From: Chloroflexota bacterium
GTDB lineage: Bacteria > Chloroflexota > Chloroflexia > Chloroflexales > Roseiflexaceae
NCBI GenBank assembly: GCA_030550675.1
Contig: JAUQOW010000013.1
Span: 1 to 37,063 of the forward strand
Direction: 5' to 3'
DNA: 37,063 bases
In this document: in pieces, positions 1,770 to 9,665 of the stretch
How the letters are laid out: every line of letters begins with the position of its first letter
Numbering within the stretch: the first letter of the stretch is position 1
Translations under genes and position numbers: made by a program
The notes under the pieces: model-generated
Told to the model about the DNA's origin: nothing
The model's database searches: none
Seen by the model: the letters and a program-made list of their open reading frames with translations, nothing else

Positions 1770-3554
1770 CTACCGCACGTGGGGTGCGCTGCGATACGCA
1801 CATGATGAAATCAGGTCTCTCAATTGCTCGATCAGCGCCCGATACTCCCAATTTTCCGGCGCTGTCGAGAGCAAATGACGGCTGCCTACAATGATCAGTT
1901 TCACCCGCGCGCGGGTCACAGCGACGTTCAGGCGTTCCGGCTGCAGAAAGAAATCCGCGATCCTGGCGGCAAACGCCGGGTTTGACGTGGTCAGCGAGAG
2001 GAGAACGACCTCGCGTTCCTGTCCCTGCATTCGCTCAACTGTATCAACGACGATTGCCCGCCGTTGGTTGTCATCGGGAATGACGGATCGCATCAGATTA
2101 CGAATGAGACGTCCCTGCGCCCGGTACGGCGCAATAACGCCGATTTCGGCGGGTTCAACGCCGCAGCGCAGGAGTTCGGCAATCAGGTCGCAGATCAGGG
2201 TCGCTTCCTCCTGGCTTCTCGTTGTAGTGTTGCGATGCCGCAGATCGACAAAGACTTTGGGAGTTTCCGGGTCCAGAATGTCGATAAATCGTGTCGGCGG
2301 TCGCTGATAGACGATCCGGCGTCTGGCGATCGCTTCCGTAGCGCAGCGTAGCTTGCCGTAGTAGTGCTGCTGGCTAGGACAGGCGGTCAGTTCGGCGTTC
2401 ATCCGGTAGGTCTCGTTGAGCATCGTATCAAACCGTCGCCCGACGAGCGCGCCAAACACGGAGGAACGGAGCCATGCCTCCCGATGCTTCGCCGTCAGAA
2501 CTGGCGGCAACTGTTTGTGGTCGCCGATGAAGATATACCGCTTTGCGACCAGCATGCCCATAATGGCGAGCGGCATGGTTATCTGGCTGGCTTCATCGAA
2601 GATCACCGCGTCAAACTCGACGCCGCTGAGACGCTTCGTGCGTGTCGCAAACGGCGTCGCACCAATCGCATATCCGCCGCTACATTCCACCAGCGGCGAT
2701 TGATCGAACGTCTCGTAATTCTTGACGCCTTTGAGTCCTTCAGCGCGCGCCCGACGCCCGATTTTGCAGAACGCAACTGGCGCCGCATCACCGCGCCGAT
2801 TGAGATCGGCGATCTTCTCTAGTGCATTGTTAATGGCATGGTGCGTCAAAGCAGTCACAAAAACGCGCTCGCCATCTTCGACGAGCAACTGAACAAGACG
2901 GGCAAGCGCCAGCGTTTTGCCTGTGCCGGGGGGACCCTGGATCAGCCAGGTCAGGTTAGTGGCATACGCATTGGCCACGGCTTCGCACTGCGCCATATTC
3001 AATCCCCATCGTTCAGCTCGCTCGTACGCCCGCTCATAGCGTTCGTAATCGATGGTCGGTTCGACCTTCCCCATCAGAAGCGGCAGAATGCGTTGCTGTC
3101 CAATGGTTGTTTCCGCGACCTGATTGAGCGCATCGAGGATATACTGGCTGACATCTACGTAGCCCTGGTCGAGCGCCCATCCCGTCTGCTGGTGCAGGAT
3201 TCGTCCCCAATTGACGTCGGAGTCGCGTATCGAGACGAGCAGGCGCGTTTCGTCGTCGACTTCGAGAGTGCAAAGGGCGCGCGGCTCTTCAAACGGGTTG
3301 CCGCGGTTCAGCAGCAGCACATCGCCTTCGCGGAAACGTGACATATTGCACGGACAGGCGAGTTCGACGACACCCTCCGGGGTCACACGCACGACCTGTA
3401 CACCTTCAATGGCGTTTCCGTCCGCTACCCGTTCAGCGAGCGGCCTCGACCAGGTCTGAAACAGTTGTTGACGTGCACTGTCGGCTTCGTCAAGCACGAG
3501 GCGGCGCAACTGACGGAGGAAATCAGCCGGAGACAGGGGGTGATTGAGTGACAT
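1770..3554 (-). CDS. Upf1/DNA2-like superfamily 1 helicase (AAA_11/AAA_12)
   Basis: ORF 1770..3704; likely start is the internal Met (MSLNHPLSPADFLRQLRR). Motifs: IQGPPGTGKT, VIFDEASQIT, FIGDHKQLPPV, MQGQEREVVLLSLT, RLNVAVTRARVKLIIVG. Confidence 0.9.
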   Translation of the reverse strand: MSLNHPLSPADFLRQLRRLVLDEADSARQQLFQTWSRPLAERVADGNAIEGVQVVRVTPEGVVELACPCNMSRFREGDVLLLNRGNPFEEPRALCTLEVDDETRLLVSIRDSDVNWGRILHQQTGWALDQGYVDVSQYILDALNQVAETTIGQQRILPLLMGKVEPTIDYERYERAYERAERWGLNMAQCEAVANAYATNLTWLIQGPPGTGKTLALARLVQLLVEDGERVFVTALTHHAINNALEKIADLNRRGDAAPVAFCKIGRRARAEGLKGVKNYETFDQSPLVECSGGYAIGATPFATRTKRLSGVEFDAVIFDEASQITMPLAIMGMLVAKRYIFIGDHKQLPPVLTAKHREAWLRSSVFGALVGRRFDTMLNETYRMNAELTACPSQQHYYGKLRCATEAIARRRIVYQRPPTRFIDILDPETPKVFVDLRHRNTTTRSQEEATLICDLIAELLRCGVEPAEIGVIAPYRAQGRLIRNLMRSVIPDDNQRRAIVVDTVERMQGQEREVVLLSLTTSNPAFAARIADFFLQPERLNVAVTRARVKLIIVGSRHLLSTAPENWEYRALIEQLRDLISSCAYRSAPHVR

Positions 3555-4045
3555 GAATGCTTCGAATGATCGTTTGCAGCGACGAAGACACCGATGCCCT
3601 GCGACTATGCGCGCTGTCGTAGCATGCCAGTGTAACGCAAGCGTCGGTTCGCTGTCAAAGAATGGGGGAATACGGAGGTCCAGGCATGAATTGTCAGACG
3701 GCAAGCACGCGCGTCTCTGCTGCGCCGCGCCCTGGCTAGCGATTGAAGTCGCGCCAGGCAGGCGCGCCGCTGGGCGTCCGCGTGCGGTTCGACACGCTCA
3801 CCACACGCGGACGCGGTCGTTCCCGTCCGCGCAGGCGGACGGTCGGTCGCAGGTTCAGCAGGGGCGATGTCAATCGCTGGCAACCGGAGCGTCGTTTCCT
3901 GACACATCATGCCTGCACCAGGGAATATGCCCGCGTCTGAAACGTACCGCTCGTCCGTCAGCGACATCAGGCGCATGGGCGGCAACGCGCCTCACTGCTG
4001 ATCGCAGCGCCTTTTCCAAACCGCGATCAATGGGGAGGCGCCTTG

Positions 4046-4366
4046 TCAATTGCTGCTCCACGCCTTCCCCGCCGTTCGGTCGTACTTCTGCTTGCGGCGA
4101 ATGTCGCGCAGGGCGCGCCGGTTGCGGTAAACGGTGATGAGCACCGGGGTCTCCCCGGTATCGTTGATGACCAGCGTGGCGCCTTCCAGATGATGATATT
4201 TTTGAAAGGTCGCGCGATCCGTTGGGATGTTACGCCGTCCGAGGAAGATGTGCAGCACGCCGCCGCTGCGGATGCGACGCCCGTGTCGCATAATGAAATC
4301 TACCTCGTCATCGTTCAGATTGCGCTGCGCCTGGCGCAGACGCGCGTGATTGCTGATGGCGATCAT
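4046..4366 (-). CDS. DUF4258-like small protein
   Basis: 106 aa: HARLRQAQRNLNDDEVDFIMRHGRRI...LVINDTGETPVLITVYRNRRALRDIRRKQKY, typical DUF4258 layout. Confidence 0.65.
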   Translation of the reverse strand: MIAISNHARLRQAQRNLNDDEVDFIMRHGRRIRSGGVLHIFLGRRNIPTDRATFQKYHHLEGATLVINDTGETPVLITVYRNRRALRDIRRKQKYDRTAGKAWSSN

Positions 4367-4562
4367 TGCTGCCTCCTCTGTTCACATGCGGCGTCTGCCT
4401 TTGTCTTCAGATACGCGGCTGCTTCATCATTCGTTGCATTCAGCATAGCGCGTTTCTATGAACAGGATAAGACACGCACACCCCGTTTTTTTCATCTTCG
4501 CCGATTGACAATGAGCGAAGCGATTGGGTATCATTCATGCACGTCTGTTCGGAGAACTGATC

Positions 4563-4776: not shown

Positions 4777-5424
4777 ATGACGCAACAACGTTCGTGGTAT
4801 GAGGTGGTGCAGGAGTGTCAGGCGCGCGTAGCGCGCCTCCGCGCTGTGCTGACGACAGGCGGCGCATTGACGCCGGAACTCTGGGCAGATCTTGACGCCG
4901 TGATTCTCGCAATGCGCAACTGGATCTACGGGCGGGCGCGCAGTCTGGGACTGGATGAGGACGCCCGCAGCGAGGTTCTGCTCGCAGTGATCGAACAACT
5001 TCATAAAGACCTGCGCAGTCCCGGATTCAGCAGCATGGAGCGCAGATTTGGCTCGTATGTCTCGACGACGGTCAACCGCATTCTCCGGGAACGAAAAAAC
5101 GCGCAGCAGACCTTCTTATCTTCTCCTGAACGTCTGGACGCGCCTGTTGGCGACGATGGACCGCCGCTCTACGAGGTGATCGAGGATCCAGCGTTGGAAC
5201 GTCTTGTTGAAGCGTACCGTGACGAAGACGAGCGCAGGCGATTACACGAAGCGATTGCAGCGCTTCCCACAATTGATCGCACTGTTATCACCCATCGTCT
5301 GAATGGAAGACGCGGGATCGATATCGCACAGATGCTCGGAATGTCGCCCGCAAATGTTACACATATCTACAATCGCGCGGTCAAACGGCTGCGTCAGATG
5401 CTGACGAACGGGGAGTCATCATGA
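4777..5424 (+). CDS. sigma-70 family RNA polymerase sigma factor-like protein
   Basis: 215 aa; region 2-like (FGSYVSTTVNRILRERKN) and region 4-like HTH (LPTIDRTVITHRLNGRRGIDIAQMLGMSPANVTHIYNRAVKRLRQML). Confidence 0.75.
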   Translation: MTQQRSWYEVVQECQARVARLRAVLTTGGALTPELWADLDAVILAMRNWIYGRARSLGLDEDARSEVLLAVIEQLHKDLRSPGFSSMERRFGSYVSTTVNRILRERKNAQQTFLSSPERLDAPVGDDGPPLYEVIEDPALERLVEAYRDEDERRRLHEAIAALPTIDRTVITHRLNGRRGIDIAQMLGMSPANVTHIYNRAVKRLRQMLTNGESS

Positions 5425-6035
5425 AAGACCGCTCCTATTTTATCGAGGCGGCGCTGCGTTACGAGGAACTGCTCGAATCGGGGCAGATCGTCAGTATCGA
5501 TGCATTTGTGGCGCAGGAGCCGCCGGAGGTGCGCGAGGAACTACGCGCTTTTCTCGAGTTCAACCTGACGCTTGGCGAATTGGACGAGCCAGTAGCGTTG
5601 TCGTCGTCGGAAGAAGCGGCTGCCGACCGCGTGATGGCGCTGGCGAGGGCTGCATTTGAGCACGAGTTGAGCGGCGAGCCGGTGCAGAACCTGACTGACC
5701 TGCGCAAGGCGCGCCAGTTGACGGTTGGACGGCTGGCGCGCCAGTTGAAACTGCCGGTCGATCTGCTATCGCGTCTGGAGCGCGGCAAGGTGCGCGTCGC
5801 CACCATCCCCGAACGATTGATCGAGCGCCTCGCCGATGCGCTGCAAACCACGTCGTCCGTCATTCAGGCGGCATTGCTCGCTCCGCCGCCGGTCAGCGCA
5901 GCAGCGCGGCTGAACGCCGAGGATGGAATTGTCGAGCCGGAAGAGCCAGCGGTCAGTTTTGCGCAGGCGTTTACCGAGAGCGCTCCAACCGAGGAAGAGC
6001 GGGCCGCATGGGCTGATGTGCTGTCAGGCGTCTGA
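5421..6035 (+). CDS. XRE-type helix-turn-helix protein, possible anti-sigma/repressor
   Basis: 204 aa; HTH TDLRKARQLTVGRLARQLKLPVDLLSRLERGKV; start overlaps upstream stop as ATGA (5421-5424). Confidence 0.75.
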   Translation: MKDRSYFIEAALRYEELLESGQIVSIDAFVAQEPPEVREELRAFLEFNLTLGELDEPVALSSSEEAAADRVMALARAAFEHELSGEPVQNLTDLRKARQLTVGRLARQLKLPVDLLSRLERGKVRVATIPERLIERLADALQTTSSVIQAALLAPPPVSAAARLNAEDGIVEPEEPAVSFAQAFTESAPTEEERAAWADVLSGV

Positions 6036-6122
6036 TGCTGAAGCAGTCGGGTGCAAGTTCGTTCCTTACGGCATTTCCTGTCACGCAAGACGCAACGACG
6101 CAAAGTGCGCTTCCATGGAGTG

Positions 6123-9100
6123 ATGAGCGTTCAAGTACAGCATATTCGGGCGTTGGCATGTGAAATTCGCCGAACCTATCTGGAACTCGCTGGCGGCGCG
6201 TCAGATCATCCGCTCCCGCTCGATGATCTGGCAGAGACTCTCTGGGAGTTGACGGTCGTCCCGACGACAACGCTCGCCGAAGGCATTCAGGGGAAAGTCG
6301 AGCCGGAGCTCCAGGTCATTCGGGTTCGACGCGATCTTCCGCCGACCCGCCAGCGCTTTGTGGTTGCCCACGAGATCGGTCATGTGGCGCTTGAAGGACT
6401 GACTGCCGGACCGTTCCGCGACACCGACGACACTCTCGACGAGCGTGCGGCTGGCGAGGACGCCGATGAGAAGGCGGTCCGCACCTACAACACGCGCGAG
6501 CGCCGCGAGCGAGAGGCGAACCTTTTTGCGCTCGAATTGCTGATACCGGCGGAAGAGCTCTGGCGTGCGGTTCAGCAACCGGGCTGGAGCATCGAGACGC
6601 TGGCGGCGCACTTTGCCGTATCTTCCGACGCCATTCGCGCTCAACTGGTGAATGTCTGCTGTCTCGAACCGCCAGGCTTGCAGGAAACGCCTGTCGAAAA
6701 GCGCACTGCGTCCTTCACCCCCGACCCGGAACAGCAGGCGGCGGTTGATGCGCCGCTGCCGGTGCTGCTCGCCGCCGGACCCGGCACGGGCAAGACGCGC
6801 AGCATCGTGGCGAAGTATGTTTCGCTGGCGCGTCAGGGGGTCGATCCGGCGTCTATTCTGGCGCTGACATTCTCGAATCGGGCGGCGGAAGAAATGCGGG
6901 AGCGAATCATTGCGGCGCTCCGTCAGGAAGCGCCGCACCTCGCCGGAAGGGTTGAGATCAGCACGTTTCACTCGTGGGGACTGAACATGCTGCGCATCTA
7001 CGGCGCACGTCTGGGGCTGCCCGTCGATGCGCGTCTGCTCGATACCGCCGATCTTTTCATGCTGCTCTCAAAACGCCTGAACGATCTGCGTCTGGAGCAT
7101 TTTAAGGACCTCCACGAGCCAACCCATCACCTGCCGACGATTATTCAGGCGATCAGTCGCATCAAGGATGAGCTATGGTCGCCGGAGGAATTTGCGCGTC
7201 TGGCAGACGCCGAAGCGCAGCGCCTGGTTGAAGAGGCGGAACAGGCTTATCCAGGGACGACTCGCAAAGCTGCGGAGGCGCGCGAACGCGCCGCACGGCA
7301 AGCCGCCGCACTGCGCGAACTGGCGAAGATTTACCCGCGTTATGAAGCCATTCTGCGCGAAGCGGGAGCGCTCGATTATGGCGACCTGATCGTGCTGCCG
7401 GTCAGGGCGCTGCGCGATCATCCGGCAATCGCCGCCGATCTCCGCCGGCGCTACCGCTACCTGCTCGTCGACGAGTTTCAGGACATCAATTATGCGTCGG
7501 GCGAGTTGATCCGGCTGCTTGACGGCGGACGCGGGCAGGTGTGGGCAGTTGGCGACGCCTGGCAGAGCATCTACCGTTTTCGCGGCGCGTCCGCCGCCAA
7601 CCTCAATGAATTTACCCGGAACTATCCTCAGGCGAACATTTGTTACCTGACGCGCAACTACCGCTCGTTGCAACCAATCCTCGACGCCAGCGCGGCAGTG
7701 ATGGCGGGCGATCCGCGCCTTGCAGAACGACCTCCGCTCGTCGCACAGCGTTGCGGCGGCAACCATCACACTGTCATCGAGTGGGTTGCGCCGTCCCTTC
7801 AGGACGAATATGCTGCGATTGCGCATGACATTCTGCGGCGGGCGAAACGCGGCGACCGCCGATGTCCGCCAGCCTGCGCGGTGCGGCGCTGGACGGCTAC
7901 ATGCGGAAAGATGCGGCGAATGGTGCGACGTCCTGCGCTTTCGTTCCGTCGCTGGCGCTTCCGCGATCATGCCATCCTCTGCCGCACCCACGAACAGGCG
8001 AGCGCGGCGGTTGCCGTGCTTGAAGCGCATGGCATTCCTGTCGATTACATCGACAACGTGTTCGATGCGCCAGAAGTCAAGGACGTCCTGGCGGTCTGCG
8101 CTCAGATCGGAGCGACGAGCAGCGCCGGTCTGCTGCGTGCATTGACGATGCCTGAGCATCGATTGGATCCCGCCGATCTCAACCGGCTGGTTGATCTGGC
8201 GCACCACAGCCGACAGGCGCTGCCGCGAGCCGCGCGCGACCCGCAGATCATTGCACAACTGAGCGAAGCGGGACAGCGAACGCTCGCGCAGATCCAGACG
8301 ATGGTCGAGGCGCTGGAGTGCGAAGGAGACGCCTGGCAGGCGCTGACGGCATACCTGTTCCGGCACAGTCAGGCGATGCGCGAGCGGTTGATTCGCGCTG
8401 CGCGCAGGGACATCCGGGCGCAGCGCGAGCTCGCTGCGCTTGGTCGACTCCTTGCGATTGCGCGCGCCTTCGTCCAGACGGCAGCGCCAGACGAAAGAGG
8501 CGCGTCGCATTTCGTTGACTACCTTCGCGCATTGCGCGCCACTGGAGTGCGTCCACGTCCTTCGACCGGCAGACAGGCGGATGCTGTGCGAGTGATGACG
8601 GTGCATGCCGCGAAAGGATTAGAGTTTCCAATCGTATATGTGCCGGGGTTGCAGGAAGGGCGCTTTCCGGCGCGCGGCAACCAGCGTGGCGTCCCCCTAC
8701 CCGATACTCTCATTCGTGGTCCGATTGAGAGCGAGGAACAGGAGGAGCGTTATCTGCTCTACGTGGCAATGACCCGCGCGCGTGATCGGTTGGTGCTCAG
8801 CCGGGCGCTGACGCGCGGCGAAGGCGCAAGACCGGCGGATCGCTCATCGCTGCTCCCCGGCGATGGTCAGGGAAACGGCGTTCCGTGGCGTATCCGATTG
8901 ATAGAAAGCCCGATAAAATGCCCGACGCCAGCGCCCGACATACGGCTGCGCAACACGCCGTCGCCGCGCATGCCGCTGCCAGCGTCGAGCATCGATCTTG
9001 ACGGATGCAAACGGCGCTTCCTCTACCAGTATGTCTACCAACTGTACGATGATCTGTCTCCCTTTTTGCGCATGCACCAGGTCATCCGCGAATGCGTCAA

Positions 9101-9665
9101 AATCCTGACCGCACAGGCGTGCGATGGTCATCTCCCCGCTCACGAGGCTGACCTGCGCACTCTGGTGTTCGGTCAGTTACAGCGCTACGAACTCGACAGC
9201 GTGATCTACGCCGATGACTACGCCGCCGCGGCGCTGCAGCATGTCCAGGCGGTCTGGAACGATCTGCGCAGCGGGAGAATCATGCCAGCGCAGGTGGATC
9301 GGAAGATAATCGTGCGACGCCCTGCCGGGACCATCGAGGTGCGGATTGATCGCGAGGAGACGCAGGACGGGGTGACGCGCTGGGTGTGGGTGCGACCAGG
9401 CATGCCGCGCAGCGACGATCATCTAGCGGAGCGGGTGATGTTGTACGCCCTGGCGCGCCGGGAGACGCCGCACCCCCCGGATGAGATCGCTATTGCCTAC
9501 ACCGGAAACGGCGAAACGCGGCGCGTTACGCCAACTGAACGGGCGCTGGCGAATCACGCCGCAAAGATCGACCGCCTGCTAGAGGATATGGGAGCGCACC
9601 GGTGGGCGCCGTCGTTCGGACCGCAATGCAATGCATGCCCGTTCAATCTGATCTGCCCCGTATAG
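6123..9665 (+). CDS. ImmA/IrrE metallopeptidase - UvrD helicase - PD-(D/E)XK-like/Fe-S fusion protein
   Basis: ORF 6051..9665; likely ATG at 6123 (MSVQVQHIRAL). HExxH: FVVAHEIGHVALEG (HEIGH at 6369-6383), third ligand RREREANLFALELLIP; helicase motifs AAGPGTGKT, YRYLLVDEFQDINYA, VWAVGDAWQSIYRFRGA, RVMTVHAAKGLEFPIVYVPGL, LLYVAMTRARDRLVLSRA; C-terminal CNACPFNLIC plus an upstream single Cys (DGCKRRF). Confidence 0.92.
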   Translation: MSVQVQHIRALACEIRRTYLELAGGASDHPLPLDDLAETLWELTVVPTTTLAEGIQGKVEPELQVIRVRRDLPPTRQRFVVAHEIGHVALEGLTAGPFRDTDDTLDERAAGEDADEKAVRTYNTRERREREANLFALELLIPAEELWRAVQQPGWSIETLAAHFAVSSDAIRAQLVNVCCLEPPGLQETPVEKRTASFTPDPEQQAAVDAPLPVLLAAGPGTGKTRSIVAKYVSLARQGVDPASILALTFSNRAAEEMRERIIAALRQEAPHLAGRVEISTFHSWGLNMLRIYGARLGLPVDARLLDTADLFMLLSKRLNDLRLEHFKDLHEPTHHLPTIIQAISRIKDELWSPEEFARLADAEAQRLVEEAEQAYPGTTRKAAEARERAARQAAALRELAKIYPRYEAILREAGALDYGDLIVLPVRALRDHPAIAADLRRRYRYLLVDEFQDINYASGELIRLLDGGRGQVWAVGDAWQSIYRFRGASAANLNEFTRNYPQANICYLTRNYRSLQPILDASAAVMAGDPRLAERPPLVAQRCGGNHHTVIEWVAPSLQDEYAAIAHDILRRAKRGDRRCPPACAVRRWTATCGKMRRMVRRPALSFRRWRFRDHAILCRTHEQASAAVAVLEAHGIPVDYIDNVFDAPEVKDVLAVCAQIGATSSAGLLRALTMPEHRLDPADLNRLVDLAHHSRQALPRAARDPQIIAQLSEAGQRTLAQIQTMVEALECEGDAWQALTAYLFRHSQAMRERLIRAARRDIRAQRELAALGRLLAIARAFVQTAAPDERGASHFVDYLRALRATGVRPRPSTGRQADAVRVMTVHAAKGLEFPIVYVPGLQEGRFPARGNQRGVPLPDTLIRGPIESEEQEERYLLYVAMTRARDRLVLSRALTRGEGARPADRSSLLPGDGQGNGVPWRIRLIESPIKCPTPAPDIRLRNTPSPRMPLPASSIDLDGCKRRFLYQYVYQLYDDLSPFLRMHQVIRECVKILTAQACDGHLPAHEADLRTLVFGQLQRYELDSVIYADDYAAAALQHVQAVWNDLRSGRIMPAQVDRKIIVRRPAGTIEVRIDREETQDGVTRWVWVRPGMPRSDDHLAERVMLYALARRETPHPPDEIAIAYTGNGETRRVTPTERALANHAAKIDRLLEDMGAHRWAPSFGPQCNACPFNLICPV

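Follow-up and report, generated by a model that had tools for sequence, protein, structure and literature searches.

The 37,063-nucleotide stretch analyzed here (contig JAUQOW010000013.1 of a Roseiflexus-type, metagenome-assembled Chloroflexota genome assigned to the Roseiflexaceae; hereafter the window) carries a three-gene cassette encoding a sigma factor, a protein with an XRE-type helix-turn-helix (HTH), and a large protein in which an M78 protease is fused to a UvrD helicase (Table 1). An initial annotation of this DNA had described three co-directional genes, the first two overlapping by ATGA and the third beginning 87 bp later; the open reading frames (ORFs) bear this out, with the overlap at 5421-5424 and the fusion start 87 bp past the XRE stop codon. 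An in-frame GTG at 6051 is a possible alternative start for the fusion gene; homologues begin at the MSV of 6123. The 87-bp gap between the XRE and fusion genes (6036-6122) is found in one Roseiflexus subgroup only; it reaches ~500 bp in locus L025, and in L026-L029 the two genes overlap by ATGA.

The joining of an M78 domain and a complete UvrD helicase in one polypeptide was confirmed by Pfam (Peptidase_M78, E 2e-17; UvrD-helicase, E 5e-61; UvrD_C, E 3e-31), which also recognizes a C-terminal PDDEXK_1 domain (E 1.5e-6). The metallopeptidase site was correctly placed by the initial annotation as far as HEIGH (residues 83 to 87) is concerned, but not at the downstream EAN ligand; the invariant glutamate is instead E129, within ExxAN. 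Residues H83, H87, and E129 are invariant in 25 homologues from several phyla, and E84 is present in 24/25. The exception is the Abditibacteriaceae copy L096 (L096:5773-9426), in which HAIGH replaces HExxH and the upstream gene pair is not recognizable; it is a probable protease-dead or decaying copy. Helicase motifs are intact and conserved across the family, including Walker A (GPGTGKT), DEFQD (DExQD), and motif VI (VAMTRARD). The M78 domain of the fusion matches IrrE (3dte, E 0.0014). In the AlphaFold2 model of the fusion (predicted local distance difference test score [pLDDT] 82, predicted template-modeling score 0.80), Foldseek matches the helicase-nuclease part to PcrA/UvrD, AdnB (template-modeling [TM] score 0.73 by target, 4.6 Å, 786 columns), and AddA.

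The C-terminal domain has lost its nuclease site. Four cysteines (C962, C1169, C1172, and C1178) are invariant in homologues, in the [4Fe-4S] pattern of AddB/Cas4-type nucleases, and the catalytic D-x-K of the window fusion is replaced by W1089 and R1091 (9387-9395). Aligned against L139, a non-M78 UvrD-PDDEXK relative that keeps IADYKT and served as the intact control, the catalytic Asp column is acidic in 0/65 homologues and holds Arg in 47; Arg also predominates in the Lys column (38). An active helicase-nuclease was rejected on these grounds, the catalytic Asp being gone in 65/65. The ratio of nonsynonymous to synonymous substitution rates (0.08-0.29) indicates purifying selection on all three genes and on each of the four fusion domains, even the dead nuclease, which is probably retained as a DNA-binding or sensing part. 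Judged from its sequence, the fusion is best read as an AddA/AdnB-like machine in which DNA cutting appears to have been exchanged for protein cutting. The initial annotation had overlooked the dead Fe-S nuclease domain, along with the ubiquitin-operon association and the promoter-like motif described below.

Both upstream genes encode recognizable regulators. The sigma protein matches Pfam Sigma70_r4_2 (residues 153 to 205, E 8.7e-9) and, above the cut-off, NCBIfam TIGR02937 sigma70-ECF (residues 41 to 209, E 2.3e-12), and both regions 2 and 4 were found; among 38 homologues, Pfam detects region 4 in 26 and region 2 in few. The XRE protein (HTH_31, E 8e-9) consists of a helical N-terminal domain (residues 4 to 83), the HTH (91 to 153), and a conserved C-terminal tail (160 to 203). 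In its AlphaFold2 model (pLDDT 86), the HTH superposes on DdrO and on the CapH N-terminal domain (7t5u; TM 0.79 by target, 1.2 Å, E 0.49, which is nonsignificant alone), and a 42-sequence profile of this family picks up HTH proteins, including the CapH N-terminal domain (E 0.008). Foldseek searches with the N- and C-terminal parts of the XRE protein returned nothing besides the HTH.

Table 1. Cassette genes, fusion domains, and upstream promoter-like site in the window
Feature	Position	Strand	Description
Sigma gene	4777-5424	+	Sigma-70-family (ECF-like) RNA polymerase sigma factor, 215 aa
XRE gene	5421-6035	+	XRE-HTH protein, 204 aa; proposed protease substrate and anti-sigma factor or repressor
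Fusion gene	6123-9665	+	M78-UvrD-(dead)PDDEXK, 1180 aa
Peptidase_M78 (IrrE/ImmA) domain	6309-6647	+	Pfam aa 63-175, E 1.7e-17; HEIGH 6369-6383; third ligand E129 6507-6509
UvrD/PcrA superfamily 1A (SF1A) helicase	6726-8804	+	PF00580 aa 202-502, PF13361 aa 508-894; motifs intact
PD-(D/E)XK domain	9003-9659	+	PF12705 aa 961-1179; four Fe-S-type Cys; catalytic D-x-K lost
Promoter-like site TTGACA-N18-TATCAT, sigma-70-type	4505-4534	+	Upstream of operon; consensus match only

Distribution of the cassette

Each of the five other congeneric species examined carries a full-length fusion orthologue at 76-85% identity, and one of these genomes is a single 5.8-Mb contig. Two more families of the order have full-length orthologues as well, at 67% and then 39-54% identity. 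This spread across genus and order rules out an assembly artifact, which the initial annotation had named as a possible undoing, as well as a chance fusion. Among 301 Chloroflexota genomes, 38 matched the M78+UvrD N-terminus, ~35 of them true fusions, and the cassette is present in several phyla.

The sigma, XRE, and fusion genes had also been presented as one cassette, and they do form a conserved unit. Their order is kept in all six congeners and in 11/11 Chloroflexales loci, in two of which tblastn overlooked the sigma gene, which was recognized as an ORF and verified with a profile. Outside the Chloroflexota-type orphans, both upstream genes are found at 29/30 M78-fusion loci of the genome collection, which are the best matches of a pattern search and not a random sample; L096 is the exception. 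The unit does not hold in one large Chloroflexota clade (21 tree rows), where the fusion stands alone, often next to housekeeping genes; the remaining Chloroflexota keep sigma and XRE. The initial annotation had said that a lack of these neighbors beside homologues in most genomes would tell against the idea, and this clade goes part of the way toward that. The clade is nested within the cassette-bearing set in a quickly built tree with long branches, making loss of sigma and XRE the simpler reading. Among the stand-alone loci (L059-L091), those of one Chloroflexota family (e.g., L070, L072, L076, and L089) have a fixed neighborhood, with a pantothenate-kinase-like gene on one side and genes for a ~80-residue protein, a cytidylate-kinase-like protein, and an acyltransferase-like protein on the other (names based on sequence), which suggests a housekeeping role in that family.

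Relatives are also carried by ~90 plasmids, and Acinetobacter plasmid records independently annotate a sigma-70 factor, a hypothetical protein, and a UvrD helicase in cassette order. The chromosome of Escherichia coli CP61_Sichuan (L306) has a complete cassette with a multiubiquitin operon, and in two other E. coli strains (L307 and L308) IS1-truncated remnants adjoin a tRNA-Leu gene and a tyrosine recombinase. A phage origin was rejected, as 50,697 phage records gave zero matches to the M78+UvrD N-terminus; among the IMG/VR contigs fetched, only L173, a 5-kb fragment, clearly covers both M78 and UvrD. In two Chloroflexales loci (L030:1343-8312 and L031:1667-6047) the cassette adjoins a type I-E CRISPR-Cas system (Cas3, Cas8e, and Cas5e).

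Two neighbors in the window lie on the reverse strand. A DUF4258 gene (4046-4366) is divergent from the cassette, in a position kept in the genus and in L030/L031 from another family, and its product is possibly a further cassette member or a target. A DNA2/IGHMBP2-like SF1 helicase gene (1770-3704), resembling the MkoA and PLuB helicases, adjoins the cassette in at least three congeners.

Ubiquitin-like operons and a promoter-like motif

A ubiquitin-like (Bub-type) operon lies beside the cassette at 21 of the 26 genome loci outside Chloroflexota with downstream sequence and at 9 of the 10 plasmid loci read. These operons are of two kinds, one with multiubiquitin and ThiF (with or without DUF6527) and the other a Ubl/DUF7665/JAB/ThiF set as in Xanthomonas; in L254 and L111 the operon is divergent from the cassette. 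In L032, a locus from the same order as the window, genes for Multi_ubiq, Prok-E2_E, and ThiF+JAB directly follow the cassette. In a set of 290 alphaproteobacteria, both non-seed genomes with a fusion were among the 8/289 non-seed genomes with Multi_ubiq, the two genes lying on the same contig a few kilobases apart (chance co-occurrence ~7e-4, hand calculation). The response that the initial annotation had called self-contained is not so in most relatives, whose cassette adjoins a ubiquitin-like operon, with a sigma-type promoter-like element between the two.

This element, TTnCCG-N13/17-(C/G)GA(T/C)T, occurs in the gap between the fusion and ubiquitin genes at 14/23 loci, against 0.06 expected by order-1 resampling; the 23 loci are related, yet their fusions are often <60% identical. 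The E. coli locus carries it too. Subclades have their own versions of the motif, with the matching version and spacing upstream of their sigma gene: TTCCGATT-N12-TGCGACTT in L258 and L114, TTCCGGTT-N14-TCGCTCC in L110, and TTCCGGTT-N14-CGATTA in L095 are each found at both sites, and L032 repeats GGTAAC..TGCACCAGTA..ATACAGA with a one-base indel between copies. An ungapped comparison of the two promoter regions was significant in a minority of loci (combined p 0.003), so we claim sigma autoregulation for those loci alone. Because the motif is asymmetric and non-palindromic, it looks like a promoter and not like a dimer operator, and, of all the evidence, this motif points most directly to a sigma factor that may drive the ubiquitin operon.

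The 5′ untranslated region of the ubiquitin gene contains a hairpin (z below -1.5 in 20/21 loci), located in the last ~52 nucleotides before the start codon (L253, L107, L112, L101, L258, L118, and others) and differing in sequence from locus to locus. At many loci the ribosome-binding site lies in the outer stem, paired with bases of the -10/+1 region. Read-through transcripts would hide the ribosome-binding site and sigma-started transcripts would not, a modest trend in the predicted probability of its being unpaired (0.32 versus 0.52).

Upstream of the Roseiflexus operon, two congeners share the boxes and spacing of the window's promoter-like site (TTGACA-N18-TATTAT in L023 and TTGACA-N18-TATCAT in L024), and not all congeners do. 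A sigma-specific Roseiflexus promoter was sought and rejected: congener upstream regions align poorly, and only the sigma-70-type site emerged, in three of them. The Proteobacterial motif has two matches in the window, neither near the cassette.

A proposed DNA-damage switch and its alternatives

We think it rather probable that the three genes form one DNA-damage switch, composed of a helicase sensor, an M78 protease, the XRE protein, and a sigma output, and that this switch has been orphaned in Roseiflexus. The cassette's probable task is to detect damaged or foreign DNA and to switch on a defense or stress pathway, and the DNA-damage or anti-invader role put forward in the initial annotation fits its genomic company of ubiquitin-like operons, plasmids, and type I-E CRISPR neighbors. 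Comparative sequence data support the anatomy, conservation, dead nuclease, ubiquitin association, and promoter-like motif; DNA sensing, proteolysis, and sigma release are steps that we infer.

The helicase part would load on DNA ends or single-stranded DNA (ssDNA) produced by damage, stalled replication, or incoming DNA and, once engaged, would activate the N-terminal M78 protease in cis. We propose activation by DNA because a UvrD-type motor is a natural reader of ssDNA and DNA ends and because IrrE/PprI (PMC10904395) and CapP (PMC13373217) are activated by ssDNA. The protease would cut the adjacent XRE protein, with the conserved C-terminal tail or its vicinity as the likeliest site; CapH and DdrO are DNA-binding XRE-type repressors cleaved by M78 proteases (PMC10904395, PMC13373217). 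Until then the XRE protein would hold the sigma factor and/or repress the operon, and its loss would free sigma; we propose it as an anti-sigma factor because its gene immediately follows sigma, a common arrangement for anti-sigma factors. Freed sigma would transcribe from a dedicated two-box promoter, serving the ubiquitin-like conjugation operon in relatives and its own operon at several loci, and the orphan switch of Roseiflexus would act on other promoters. The most specific form of this scheme, in which an AddA/AdnB-like protein cutter reads DNA ends and frees sigma from a soluble XRE anti-sigma factor to fire the ubiquitin operon, with the Roseiflexus copy an orphan, is one that we hold tentatively, with slightly more doubt than confidence.

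Several results weigh against such a switch. One Chloroflexota clade has the fusion alone, so the helicase-protease is able to function in the absence of this sigma/XRE pair. The XRE family is divergent, with an HTH seen by Pfam in just a minority of its distant members, and no anti-sigma or sigma-binding family was matched in the XRE protein. At most multiubiquitin-type loci the motif was not found upstream of sigma, nor was a dedicated sigma promoter found in the window. Finally, no ubiquitin-like operon follows the cassette in the window, and a search for one elsewhere in Roseiflexus found no Multi_ubiq in these genomes, which makes the window cassette an orphan.

The part played by the XRE protein bears on the alternative closest to CapH, which we consider possible but unlikely: here the XRE protein would be an ordinary operon repressor, cleaved by the M78-helicase after DNA damage, and sigma would then be made and drive its targets. 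A recognizable HTH resembling those of the M78-cleaved repressors CapH and DdrO favors a repressor. The gene's position directly behind and overlapping sigma (the usual place of an anti-sigma gene) and the extra helical N-terminal domain favor an anti-sigma factor instead, the HTH is degenerate in many homologues, and the shared cis-element is non-palindromic. The AddA/AdnB-like architecture and the vertically inherited housekeeping neighbors of the stand-alone clade would also suit a role in repair or recombination, with the fusion as a break helicase whose M78 domain would process either its own helicase or partner proteins in repair and with sigma and XRE as stress-responsive neighbors. Yet resection of the AddAB/AdnAB type needs a nuclease, which in every homologue is dead, and cassette order and ubiquitin association are kept across phyla, so that we regard this role as quite improbable. 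XRE and M78 pairs have been proposed as toxin-antitoxin pairs, which counts for an anti-invader effector or toxin-antitoxin system in which the XRE protein is the antitoxin and the M78-helicase attacks plasmid or phage DNA or host proteins; the many relatives on plasmids or in the E. coli tRNA-Leu island and the CRISPR system adjoining the cassette in L030/L031 would accord with it. The sigma factor and its dedicated promoter-like element point to a transcriptional output instead, however, and relatives have known conjugation enzymes downstream, leaving such an effector very improbable.

Relation to known systems

A switch of the kind proposed most resembles CapH+CapP, the controllers of CBASS and Bub operons (Lau 2022, as summarized in PMC13373217). 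CapH+CapP and CapW control Bub operons, of which 219/544 have CapW or CapH+CapP and 59/544 have CapK+CapS (PMC13373217). The cassette shares with CapH+CapP an M78 protease (HExxH and a downstream Glu) adjoining an XRE-HTH gene and, in most non-Chloroflexota relatives and L032 but not in the window, a position before immune or ubiquitin-like operons. It differs in that the protease domain forms one polypeptide with an SF1A helicase and a dead Fe-S nuclease, a sigma gene comes first, and no operon adjoins the Roseiflexus copy. We regard the cassette as a variant of the protease-repressor controllers that departs from CapH+CapP in two features, the stand-alone protease and, in the window, the operon that follows. 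Cassette loci may have been counted as CapH+CapP in earlier Bub surveys.

Other likenesses are partial. IrrE/PprI-DdrO of Deinococcus combines an M78 HExxH...E protease, an XRE-type substrate, and a DNA-damage theme, but IrrE is small, has no helicase part, and controls a distant regulon by way of a repressor, with no sigma factor. AddA and AdnB share the UvrD-type motor, whose SF1A motifs are intact in the fusion, and a C-terminal PD-(D/E)XK domain, whereas the fusion lost the catalytic Asp, gained an N-terminal protease, and has no second subunit encoded beside it. Pairs of extracytoplasmic function (ECF) sigma and anti-sigma factors controlled by regulated proteolysis offer an overlapping next gene, a dedicated two-box promoter, and a parallel to the proposed proteolytic release; here, in contrast, the part of the anti-sigma factor would fall to a soluble XRE-HTH protein, and that of the protease to an M78 domain that is cytoplasmic and joined to a helicase. 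The Ubl, E1/ThiF, E2-like, and JAB or DUF6527 genes of Bub operons are the usual downstream partners of the cassette and are absent from Roseiflexus. The best PADLOC matches of the helicase part were to the UvrD-family helicase GajB of Gabija, which lacks M78, PDDEXK, and sigma/XRE partners; no GajA-like nuclease gene was found beside the cassette, and assignment to Gabija or another PADLOC system was rejected because these matches are to generic UvrD. Neither an M78-UvrD fusion nor this sigma cassette was described in the papers that the literature search covered, and an earlier mention may exist elsewhere.

A helicase-nuclease relative with a protease as its remaining cutting activity is unusual, and the one polypeptide makes a relay from DNA-damage reading to protease directly testable. 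The presence of the cassette in E. coli and on many plasmids makes it amenable to study in laboratory strains. If the proposed switch is correct, the cassette would be a further kind of controller for Bub operons; it would reveal how these operons, for which the trigger is largely open, are activated and would add sigma-factor release to the means of immune-operon control.

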